Shown here piece by piece: positions 4,102 through 7,171 of a DNA stretch of 39,413 nt. The notes beneath the pieces are model-generated. The model had not been told where the DNA came from. It searched no databases and saw only the letters and a list, made by a program, of their open reading frames with translations. How positions within the stretch are numbered: position 1 is the first letter of the stretch; the number at the start of each line of letters is the position of its first letter. The translations under genes and the position numbers were made by a program. This stretch comes from a virus, in the IMG/VR virus record IMGVR_UViG_3300037421_000076, positions 1-39,413 of that record; one strand, given 5' to 3'.

Positions 4102-4406
4102 GGCTTCACATCAGTTTCGCCGTGCCTGAGGGCACCCCGCCAAACTGGATTGGCGCGCTCCTCGCCGGCCAGGACATCGAGGCCGACGCCTACATAATCG
4201 ACCCCAAGCTCGGGACGCTCACCATCGGGAACTTCATCAAGGACGCCGCTGGCGTGGCAGTCGGTCGGGAAGACATCGTGGTGTATGCTCCCGGCGCGTG
4301 GCGGTCGATCGCTGACGTGGGGGCGCTCGCTGCCGCAGTCGTGAAAGAGGCCCCCAGTGAAGATCCCAGACGGCGACAAGAAGCGCGACAAGCTCGAACG
4401 GCTTGA
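4098..4406 (+). CDS. Hypothetical protein (102 aa)
   Basis: The GTG at 4098 overlaps the preceding TGA. The first 85 residues look like a compact alpha/beta fold (MRLHISFAVPEG, YIIDPKLGTLTIGNFIKDA, DIVVYAPGAWRSI). The last 17 are a charged tail lying in the region shared with the portal gene, which begins inside this one (50-bp overlap). No motif is recognised. It is co-expressed with the packaging and head genes. Confidence 0.6.
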   Translation: MRLHISFAVPEGTPPNWIGALLAGQDIEADAYIIDPKLGTLTIGNFIKDAAGVAVGREDIVVYAPGAWRSIADVGALAAAVVKEAPSEDPRRRQEARQARTA

Positions 4407-6141
4407 CTTCTATCAGTCGCTGATCGAGAAGTGCAAGGTCTCCCGCGTCGAGCGGCGCCAGCAGTACACCTCGCGGCGGATGTACTGGCTTTTCGGGAGC
4501 GACGGCTCCTACGAGAACGAGGACACGGACCTCGGCACGGGTCCCCCGCCAGGCAACAAAATCTGGCCGCACATCGACCAGCTGACCAGCTTCCTCTACG
4601 CCCAGGACACCACGCGCTTCTCGACCGAGCTCGGCGCCTCGGTGAAAAGTCAATTCCAGTCATGGGTGCCGAAGCTGAACGATGCCGTTAACGATGAGTG
4701 GCACAACTCCAACACCGACATCATCTTTGGTTCGGCGCTCGCACTCGCGCTGGTGTACGACTCGACGTTCATCAAGCCACTGTGGAAGAAGAACGGCATC
4801 GCCCCGCACATCGTGCTACCGCACAACATGGGCGTGTTGCGCGAGGACGTGGCGATGCTGTCTCGCCAGGAGGCGTTCTGTCACTGGTACACCATCACCG
4901 CCTCGCAGTTCCGAGCCGACTATCACGACGTGGTGCCGAACTTCGAGGAGAAGTTCAAGCGGCTGATGAAGCGCTCGGAGGGCTCGATGCTAGAGTCCCA
5001 GGAGGCCGGGCTCGATCGCATCATCATGTCATCCCAGGACCCGCTCGGCACCGGCGGTAACCCCGGGAGCGGCGTCGCTGTGGTCGACTGGCTGGCTTCT
5101 GTCTCGATGAACTATGTCCCGCGCGTGAAGGAGGAGCTCGTCGAGATGGTCGAGCTCTACGTGTGGGACGACAAGTTGAACGACTACCGGATCGTGACGC
5201 TCGCGGATCCCGACGTGTCGATCTTCGACCGCCCGCTCTTCACGTGCGGGTGGTTGAAGCACCAAGAGCCCATGATCCAGATTGTCCCGAACCCCGACCC
5301 TCACTACATTTGGGGCATCTCCGAAGTCGAGCGGTTAACCCCACTTCAGACCCAGCGCAACCGCTGCATGGCGCAGATCGAGCACCTGCAGGACTTGCAG
5401 GCGCACCCGCCCAGCATCGTGTCGGGGTTCCCCGCCGACATCATGGAGATGCAGTACGCGCTCGACACGACGTACGGGCTACTCAACCAGCCGGACCCCT
5501 CCGGCATGGGAGCGGGCCCGAAGGCCGAGCGCGTCAAGATCGAAGTGTCGAGGGACCTGTACGAGCGGCTCGACCGGATCGATGCGATGTTCGAGGACAT
5601 GTCGGGCCTGCCGCCGGTGACGCAGGGGAAGAACCCGCCAGGCGTGCGCGCCGGCGGTCACGCGAGCGAGCTCGCCAAGCTCGGGAGCTCACGCGCCCGT
5701 AAGCGCGCGATGATCGTCGAGGACTCCCTCGAGGCGCTCGCGACGCTCTACTTGAAGCTCAAGATGAAGTACGACAAGACGGTGCTCGAGGCGCCGATTG
5801 ACCCGAAGTCGCCCGACAAGACCGAGAGCTTCGTGCCCGCGCAATTCACCGACGACTTCACGGTGAAGGTGGACGCGCATTCCAACTCTCCCATTTTCGT
5901 CGATGATCAGACCGCGCTCGCGTTCCAGCTCCTCAAGGCGAAGGCCATCACGCGGAAGCGCCTCTTGCAGATGGTGCCGGTGTCGATGCGTCAGCAGTTG
6001 ATACACGACCTCGAGAACGAGATTGAGCCCGCGGAGAAAGCCGCGGCCGAGCAGCAGCAGAAGATCGAAGAGACGCGTGCGCAAGGTCGCGCGCAGGGTC
6101 GACCAGGCAAACCGCGTAACGGTTCGGAAGCGACTCAGTAG
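4357..6141 (+). CDS. Portal protein (594 aa)
   Basis: The portal is the dodecameric ring at the capsid vertex through which DNA is packaged and ejected. Support is the position after terL and before scaffold and capsid, the size (about 600 aa), and a portal-like composition. The protein has an acidic, aromatic N-terminal region, a central stretch around HYIWGISEVERLTPLQTQRN, a helical region with PPVTQGKNPPGVRAGG, and a long C-terminal helical part ending in a Gln/Arg-rich tail (AEQQQKIEETRAQGRAQGR). The central pattern fits portals of the podovirus type. The start is GTG 4357. Confidence 0.85.
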   Translation: MKIPDGDKKRDKLERLDFYQSLIEKCKVSRVERRQQYTSRRMYWLFGSDGSYENEDTDLGTGPPPGNKIWPHIDQLTSFLYAQDTTRFSTELGASVKSQFQSWVPKLNDAVNDEWHNSNTDIIFGSALALALVYDSTFIKPLWKKNGIAPHIVLPHNMGVLREDVAMLSRQEAFCHWYTITASQFRADYHDVVPNFEEKFKRLMKRSEGSMLESQEAGLDRIIMSSQDPLGTGGNPGSGVAVVDWLASVSMNYVPRVKEELVEMVELYVWDDKLNDYRIVTLADPDVSIFDRPLFTCGWLKHQEPMIQIVPNPDPHYIWGISEVERLTPLQTQRNRCMAQIEHLQDLQAHPPSIVSGFPADIMEMQYALDTTYGLLNQPDPSGMGAGPKAERVKIEVSRDLYERLDRIDAMFEDMSGLPPVTQGKNPPGVRAGGHASELAKLGSSRARKRAMIVEDSLEALATLYLKLKMKYDKTVLEAPIDPKSPDKTESFVPAQFTDDFTVKVDAHSNSPIFVDDQTALAFQLLKAKAITRKRLLQMVPVSMRQQLIHDLENEIEPAEKAAAEQQQKIEETRAQGRAQGRPGKPRNGSEATQ

Positions 6142-6198
6142 CGCTCGGCGCGCCAGCGGAGTACAGTCTCGCTCGACGATAGGGGCTCAAATCTGAAC

Positions 6199-6214
6199 CT
6201 CACCGAAAGGTGGG
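6199..6214 (+). other. RNA hairpin with GAAA tetraloop
   Basis: CTCACC and GGTGGG (one G-T pair) can form a 6-bp stem closed by GAAA, a GNRA-type loop known for RNA stability and tertiary contacts. It ends 7 bases before the AGGAGG ribosome site of the 13-aa gene, so it could tune translation or protect a processed 5' end. Confidence 0.45.
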
Positions 6215-6235
6215 TGCCTACAGGAGGGCTGCAAG

Positions 6236-6277
6236 ATGGCACGGCATCGCAAAGGCGGACGTCGGAAGCGTCGTTAA
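6236..6277 (+). CDS. 13-aa Arg/Lys-rich peptide
   Basis: ATG at 6236 to TAA at 6275-6277 encodes MARHRKGGRRKRR, with 8 of 13 residues Arg, Lys or His. The ribosome site AGGAGG (6222-6227) is perfect and well placed (8 bases), which is rare even for the large genes here. A hairpin precedes it and an intrinsic terminator follows 27 bases later, so it looks like a deliberate last cistron of the packaging operon. Such a peptide could bind DNA or RNA or the portal, but no family is recognised. It could also be only a ribosome-loading site that protects the transcript end. Confidence 0.5.
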   Translation: MARHRKGGRRKRR

Positions 6278-6304
6278 CCCGCTTCGGGTACGCTCCCAAA
6301 CCAT

Positions 6305-6341
6305 ACGGCTCGGACTTCAACCGTCCGAGCCGTTTTCGTTT
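6305..6341 (+). terminator. Strong intrinsic terminator
   Basis: A perfect 11-bp stem (6305-6315 with 6323-6333, ACGGCTCGGAC paired with GTCCGAGCCGT) closes a 7-base loop, and a T-rich run (TTTTCGTTT) follows. This is the clearest Rho-independent terminator in the window. It separates the terminase-portal genes from the scaffold-capsid genes, and may be partly read through to reset gene dosage. Confidence 0.9.
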
Positions 6342-6401
6342 CAAACTTGACAACGCAGGTGCGCGCGTCGCAGCATCCGCCACCTAGCGACAAGGCACTC
6401 G

Positions 6402-6761
6402 ATGTCCACCCCGGCCGACCAACTTGGGGCCGCACCACCCGGAGGCGCACAGCCCCCCGCGGGTGCTGAGCCATCGCCGGGCGCCGCTCCCACACTCACG
6501 CCTCAGGAGCCACAAGGCGAACAGGCCTCGGCCGATGCTGGCGTGATGGTCGCGCTTCGGATGCTCGAGCACTCGCTCGTCGCGCACGGCTCGACTTCAC
6601 CGAAAGGCAAAGCTCTGAGCAAAGCGATCAACTCGATCGCCAGTGCCTTCGGGAAGACTGAAGACGAGTCGCTACAGATCATGCCGGCGGAACTGAAGAC
6701 GGCGCTCATGGCGCCCGCCGGCGGCGGTGGCGTTCCCGAAGGCGTGGGCGCGGCCGCGTAA
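6402..6761 (+). CDS. Hypothetical structural-region protein (119 aa)
   Basis: The first 45 residues are Pro/Ala/Gly-rich and probably disordered. Residues 46-105 look helical (VALRMLEHSLVAHGS, SKAINSIASAFGK), and the end is Gly/Ala-rich. The location between portal and scaffold suggests a head-assembly accessory protein. It is the first gene after the terminator at 6305, so it needs its own promoter or readthrough. No family is recognised. Confidence 0.6.
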   Translation: MSTPADQLGAAPPGGAQPPAGAEPSPGAAPTLTPQEPQGEQASADAGVMVALRMLEHSLVAHGSTSPKGKALSKAINSIASAFGKTEDESLQIMPAELKTALMAPAGGGGVPEGVGAAA

Positions 6762-6784: not shown

Positions 6785-6982
6785 ATGGCTGACAACAGAA
6801 AGAAGTTCCTCGGGCCGAACTCCGGCACGATCCGTGACCCGACATCCAACTCCCTCGAGCACGGCCGGATGCGTAATCCGCCGCGCATGATGGAGATGGG
6901 CGGTTGGGACAACACGCGAAAGGGCTTCCACAAGAACGACAAGAAGCTCGCGAGCGTCGCCGCTTCAGTCGCGAACTCGTAA
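6785..6982 (+). CDS. Small basic protein (65 aa)
   Basis: The ATG at 6785 follows an AGAGAGGA ribosome site. The protein is rich in Lys, Arg, Asn and Met (PPRMMEMGGWDNTRKGFHKN) and probably lacks a large hydrophobic core. It sits with the 61-aa basic gene at 6986 immediately before the scaffold, and may be a minor virion or DNA-associated protein. No family is recognised. Confidence 0.6.
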   Translation: MADNRKKFLGPNSGTIRDPTSNSLEHGRMRNPPRMMEMGGWDNTRKGFHKNDKKLASVAASVANS

Positions 6983-6985
6983 CCG

Positions 6986-7171
6986 ATGGCGTACACCGCG
7001 AAAGGCCGAGGCTTTCATCCTGGTGCGCGTAACAGCACGGCCAGCATGTCCCAACCTCACCCGCGCGGTAAGCCGATCAAGCGAAGCCCGAGTCAGCCAG
7101 CCGGTCGCGGTAAGCCGTACCCGCGATTGAGCCCGAGTCAGCGCGAGCGGCCGCGCGGTTTCAGCAAGTAA
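6986..7171 (+). CDS. Basic SPSQ-repeat protein (61 aa)
   Basis: The ATG at 6986 is 3 bases after the preceding stop. The protein is strongly basic, Pro- and Ser-rich, with an imperfect internal repeat: RGKPIKRSPSQ and then RGKPYPRLSPSQ, also visible in DNA as two copies of CGCGGTAAGCCG and of AGCCCGAGTCAG. Basic Ser-Pro repeats recall histone-tail minor-groove binders, so a DNA-binding role in the head is possible but unproven. Confidence 0.6.
   Translation: MAYTAKGRGFHPGARNSTASMSQPHPRGKPIKRSPSQPAGRGKPYPRLSPSQRERPRGFSK

Follow-up and report, generated by a model that had tools for sequence, protein, structure and literature searches.

Conserved Arg/Lys-Rich Microgenes between the Portal and Capsid Genes in a Family of Tailed-Phage-Like Viruses

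Introduction

Does a 13-codon basic frame lying directly behind a phage portal gene encode a peptide that selection maintains, and if so, what might such a peptide do? The question is raised by IMG/VR record IMGVR_UViG_3300037421_000076, a stretch of 39,413 bases (hereafter the window) with terminase, portal, and major capsid protein (MCP) among its genes. A sequence-only reading of the window had pointed to a GAAA-capped hairpin, an AGGAGG, the 13-codon frame, and an 11-bp terminator that follow each other within 143 bp, and had proposed either a DNA-condensing or RNA-binding micropeptide, perhaps made in large amounts, or an attenuator-like device. Genes of 9–14 codons fall under the limit of gene callers, and no protein or RNA family describing the microgene or its leader was found in Pfam, PHROG, or Rfam. 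Nor did we find a description of Arg-rich phage micropeptides beside portal genes in the literature, although an unnamed cluster in earlier small-gene catalogues is possible.

Results

The Microgene and Its Neighbors in the Window

All four parts named in the sequence-only reading are found in the sequence, and they are listed with the neighboring elements in Table 1. The leader hairpin consists of ACC, a bulged U, CACC, the GAAA loop, GGUG, and GGU, with a folding energy of −9.9 kcal/mol (z = −2.25). The encoded peptide, MARHRKGGRRKRR, has a computed mass of 1.67 kDa and a computed charge of about +7.6 at pH 7. Its frame is unique on both strands of the window among frames of at least 10 codons with at least 60% Lys/Arg and a Shine-Dalgarno (SD) match of at least 5 nt, and such a Lys/Arg frame arises in 0 of 4,000 dinucleotide shuffles of the gap downstream of the portal gene. 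Because an AGGAGG stands 3–12 nt before an ATG four times on the plus strand and never on the minus strand, it is fair to count this ribosome site among the best of the genome, as had been claimed.

Table 1. Features at and around the microgene in the window
Feature	Position	Strand	Basis or remark
Portal protein gene (594 aa), immediate upstream neighbor of the microgene	4357..6141	+	PHROG portal match (E = 7.9e-7); alignment of 12 relatives
G-rich box GGGGC ahead of the microgene, also in many relatives	6182..6186	+	Spotted by eye
Leader hairpin, GAAA loop	6197..6215	+	Folding; same-place stems in L003, L004, L005, L018, L022
Shine-Dalgarno AGGAGG, ATG 8 nt downstream	6222..6227	+	Sequence; SD kept in relatives
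Microgene MARHRKGGRRKRR plus stop	6236..6277	+	Frame 6236–6274 (13 codons), TAA 6275–6277
Short hairpin ACCCG-CTT-CGGGT at the microgene stop codon	6277..6289	+	Comparable stems in relatives
Intrinsic terminator, closes the terminase-portal unit	6305..6340	+	Stem 6305–6333 (11 pairs, loop of 7), then U-rich tail TTTCGTTT
TTGACA box ahead of the capsid-side genes	6347..6352	+	Sequence; TTGAC[AT] common in relatives
Pro/Ala-rich acidic 119-aa gene, conserved downstream neighbor	6402..6761	+	Next gene after the microgene

The neighbors of the microgene are terminase, portal, a small head-region gene, and MCP, and the portal, Pro/Ala-rich protein, and MCP of the window are all acidic. This acidity and the gene position are what one would expect if the peptide were an assembly cofactor binding acidic head proteins instead of nucleic acid. 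We consider such a role quite improbable, since no conserved motif is present beyond charge and small spacers, and nucleic acid is the expected preference of free polycations. Two more small basic genes occur at 6785–6982 (65 aa, pI 10.6) and 6986–7171 (61 aa, pI 12.0) of the window; both precede the likely scaffold gene, and several loci contain relatives of the 65-aa one.

Distribution in Relatives

A nucleotide search of the phage collection with the window gave no match. Among the annotated phage genomes of the collection searched, only MW202825 and MW202753 are related via portal and capsid; both are Manatee Spring metagenomic phages with 43–58% identity in these two proteins. Most relatives are uncultivated environmental contigs, and nine come from genome bins with inconsistent hosts. 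In the relatives fetched by their portal, the gap after the portal gene carries between one and three short frames that start with ATG and are preceded by an SD; they have 9–27 codons, mostly 10–14, and encode on average 46% Arg and 22% Lys. When a strict rule is applied, which asks for a micro-ORF in the gap that has an SD and a Lys/Arg content of 50% or more, 52 of 61 non-redundant relatives have one directly behind the portal gene, compared with an expectation of 0.03 loci in shuffles of the same stretches and with 0 on the opposite strand. One, two, or three tandem copies are present in 25, 20, and 8 non-redundant loci, respectively. Examples are MRHRKGRKGRR in locus L002, MARRKRRGRKSKR in L009, and MARKARKGRKARK in L094, and L041 carries three such peptides (MYKSVKRSRRSRRK, MRRKGRKGKR, and MRRKGRKARR). 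The peptides of L077 (MARKRKGGRRKRR) and L075 (MSRKRKGGRRKRR) are one and two residues off that of the window, with portals only ~42% identical to the portal of the window.

The gap lacks such a frame in L014, L016, the L070–L074 group, and L095; L070 and L095 instead keep a 56–59-aa gene with a basic end in this gap. In L056, ATA replaces ATG and the remaining frame is kept, which may reflect a loss or a sequencing error. As some relatives are without the microgene, it is not strictly needed for the head of every relative. We also observed a gene of 50–59 aa with the pattern ADQPR...LQYRVQ...GR..R between the portal gene and the microgenes in many relatives (right after the portal gene in, for example, L070, L095, L056, L033, L088, L092, and L097); it is absent from the window, and one such gene is annotated as hypothetical UOF81571. 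In MW202825 and MW202753, which form the L096/L097 pair, the microgenes are missing from both annotations and the region is covered by minus-strand CDS calls, which are probably spurious.

The position of the microgene was also examined by searching the viral collection with DNA patterns for micropeptides of other clades alone, ignoring their neighbors, and at least 164 loci were analyzed. The pattern MARKARKGRK[AG]RK occurs in at least 80 loci; among the matches listed, 80 of 80 belong to the phage family of the window, and wherever the piece includes the neighbors, the match is flanked by the portal gene on one side and, on the other, by the Pro/Ala-rich gene that precedes the capsid gene. 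Two other peptide-type patterns gave 84 of 84 analyzed loci in the same family and at the same position, some of them overlapping the portal-fetched set, and the window-like pattern MAR[KHQN]RKGGRRKRR is rare. Across the at least 164 loci, nearly all microgenes are situated between portal and capsid genes. The exceptions to the context rule were read by hand: L246 has a gene inserted after the portal gene, and in L269 the portal gene is off the piece and the downstream neighbors are there.

This distribution bears on whether the peptide could act on the host, for example by inhibiting the ribosome, RNA polymerase, or a nuclease or by aiding lysis, and merely hitch-hike in the head operon. Small basic phage peptides can target host machines, and the translation signals here are strong; host-takeover genes, however, are usually early and mobile, whereas the portal-capsid position is strict in essentially all analyzed loci and holds across very different G+C contents, so a host-acting peptide appears improbable.

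Selection on the Peptide and on Codon Choice

Selection was evaluated in 28 independent pairs of loci picked by portal identity. Of the codon differences, 57 are silent, where 20.2 would be expected, and 40 are replacing, where 76.8 would be (P = 4×10−16). The departure from expectation is large, although counts within a pair, and likewise loci inside one clade, are not fully independent. Third codon positions hold most of the changes (81 vs. 39 and 34), and the Gly/Ala/Ser positions of the micropeptide are conserved too. The share of CGT among the Arg codons of the microgene exceeds that in the portal gene in 49 of 53 loci and falls below it in 4; in G+C-rich relatives, CGT makes up 35% of the Arg codons in microgenes, whereas it makes up 9% in portal genes. 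This enrichment fits selection for fast translation, and weaker RNA structure is another possible reason.

The sequence-only reading had proposed to weigh codon conservation against hairpin conservation among relatives, with a conserved hairpin over unconserved codons as the outcome speaking against a peptide. The comparison gave the reverse: the codons are conserved, and the hairpin is kept as a mere shape in one small clade, with other RNA shapes elsewhere. At the level of sequence, the comparison demonstrates that the frame is conserved as codons, is preceded by an SD, uses fast Arg codons, and occupies this position in essentially every member carrying it. The 13-codon frame is thus almost certainly a conserved, translated micropeptide gene. 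Synteny, purifying selection on the codons, the conserved SD, and the fast-codon bias together give strong support to the proposal of a micropeptide that may be produced abundantly.

RNA Structures around the Microgene

In the clade of the window (the window, L003, L004, L005, L018, and L022), a stem-loop occupies the same position ahead of GUGCCUACAGGAGG or a closely similar sequence, and both stem and loop sequences vary. The GAAA loop is present in none of the other five members and only in the window (n = 6 sequences and folds). Because the MAFFT alignment is poor for these six hairpins, their pair counts were not drawn from it.

A different structure characterizes the MARKARKGRK clade (L099–L178), in which the microgene is immediately preceded, at about 25–75 nt, by a covarying H-type pseudoknot. 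The pseudoknot has a 4-bp stem with GGCUGNN in its loop, and this motif base-pairs with 7 nt that end in GCC or ACC and are closer to the SD. Among the matches listed, the pseudoknot is present in 68 of 80 MARKARKGRK loci, and it occurs once elsewhere in 608,655 bases. In 26 distinct versions, 279 of 286 pairs are formed, compared with 248 ± 3.6 (maximum 258) in a control in which the 3′ halves were exchanged between loci and the offsets re-optimized. The same scan found no pseudoknot in the window itself. Rfam searches at the gathering score gave nothing relevant, either in the window or in the surroundings of the microgene of 12 relatives; when relaxed to E up to 10, they gave only chance-level matches and nothing for the pseudoknot.

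A third leader type was observed upstream of MRHRKGR(R/K)GRR (L002, L019, L020, and L021), with the layout CUGGGGGC...GGCAACACCCGGCA-variable stem-UGCAACCGGGACGCC; it apparently forms several nested helices. At the other end of the frame, 42 of 90 loci have a stem at or over the microgene stop codon, where 5.6 would be expected; a frequent form of this hairpin is UAAUCC-loop-GGAUUA, in which the pairing takes in the stop codon itself. A (U/A)GGGG(A/G)C box is seen ahead of the microgene in the window and most relatives, sometimes preceded by TAGACT or TACAGT. As a candidate −10 element in the clade of the window, the latter is accompanied by no −35 box, and it was not seen in other clades.

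These leaders raise the alternative that the Arg-rich peptide is an autoregulatory or trans-acting RNA binder, which binds its own leader (hairpin or pseudoknot) and controls the translation or transcription of late genes. Arg-rich peptides of such length can bind RNA hairpins, and the presence of structured leaders in several clades, with the covarying pseudoknot in 68 of the 80 listed matches of one clade and the same-place stem in six members of another, would also fit a regulatory RNA-binding peptide. The leader fold, however, changes between clades and the peptide character stays constant, the GAAA loop is confined to the window, and tandem copies and fast codons suggest that dose matters. 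Moreover, the microgene is the last one before the terminator, so its own transcript offers no obvious downstream target. We therefore regard RNA regulation as unlikely, though well worth keeping in view. The peptide resembles the Arg-rich-motif peptides of the lambda N/boxB system in being short and Arg-rich with a GNRA-type-loop hairpin beside it in the window; unlike in that system, the loop varies in L003, L004, L005, L018, and L022 while the stem is kept, the hairpin belongs to the leader of the peptide itself, and a larger N-like protein is missing.

Transcription of the Capsid Side

In 70 of 87 loci, a TTGAC[AT] box lies no more than 200 nt downstream of the microgene, compared with 3 of 87 on the opposite strand, which argues for the capsid-side genes being on a separate transcript, as judged from these boxes. 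In the window, a sigma-70 promoter for the capsid side was not recognized, and the TTGACA box alone is present.

The suggestion of an attenuator-like device finds no support here. In such a device, the movement of ribosomes over the Arg/Lys codons would set the folding of the terminator stem (6305–6333) and hence the expression of the capsid genes. As in amino-acid attenuators, the 143 bp hold a short Arg-rich frame and then a terminator. Unlike in those attenuators, a TTGACA-type box stands beyond the terminator in most relatives, CGT, a fast codon, is enriched instead of slow codons, and the peptide is conserved at the residue level, Gly/Ala/Ser positions included, with silent changes dominating. 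In addition, there are as many as three tandem copies, the genes after the terminator are head genes with no biosynthetic gene or Arg metabolism among them, and a non-exhaustive search of window folds shows no alternative pairing between frame and terminator. Attenuation of the downstream capsid genes is accordingly disfavored, and we consider it highly improbable.

Discussion

The best explanation overall, to which we assign a probability of roughly 45%, is that the locus is a microgene for a polycationic peptide under purifying selection that neutralizes phage DNA. The 143-bp segment is a dedicated microgene composed of a structured leader, a strong ribosome site, the 13-codon frame, and the terminator. 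The micropeptide would be strongly translated late in infection and would bind nucleic acid via its charge; its most likely role, with protein J of phiX174 as a model, would be to coat or neutralize the DNA of the phage as it is packaged, either at the portal or within the head. The leader RNA may tune its translation, possibly through feedback binding of the peptide. Nucleic-acid binding is to be expected because 13 residues with a charge of about +7.6 would be made in quantity beside the portal and capsid genes. A role in packaging or head neutralization specifically is plausible, at somewhat short of even odds, as charge alone cannot separate DNA binding from RNA or protein binding.

Protein J of microviruses, which have ssDNA, is 24–38 aa in length and attaches to the coat protein through a hydrophobic/aromatic tail. 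In phiX174, genome packaging depends on protein J, which is carried into the particle along with the DNA (PMC5830620). Like protein J, the micropeptide is small, strongly basic, and encoded with the capsid genes. Unlike protein J, the micropeptides have 9–27 aa, are often encoded in tandem, belong to dsDNA tailed-phage-like viruses with terminase and portal, and have no hydrophobic/aromatic C-terminal tail, as they mostly end in Arg/Lys and aromatics are rare. In searches with Pfam and PHROG profiles, four relatives of 20–27 aa gave no match even at E values of 10 and 1; the 13-aa peptide of the window is too short to test. The viral protamine-like peptide mu/pX of adenovirus is likewise a very short polycationic peptide and a proposed neutralizer of dsDNA in the capsid; mu is cut from a precursor, whereas the micropeptide is encoded directly by a 13-codon gene. 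What is new is thus the occurrence in dsDNA phages of directly encoded, often tandem micropeptides with structured leaders, the known kind being small basic packaging proteins. We tentatively suggest, at odds clearly below even, that a tailed-phage-like virus family encodes protamine-like peptides (9–27 residues, usually 10–14) as tandem microgenes with their own structured leader RNAs.

Ordinary proteomics is unlikely to detect such a peptide because trypsin would cut after most of its residues. The pseudoknot of one clade adds a covarying RNA element that is missing from Rfam, and a polycationic micropeptide at the portal/capsid boundary makes it testable how some dsDNA phages neutralize their packaged DNA. 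If the suggestion of protamine-like microgenes is true, few conserved structural genes known would be as small as these, and bacterial viruses would possess a peptide-based neutralization of packaged dsDNA that has been hidden from gene callers and trypsin-based proteomics.
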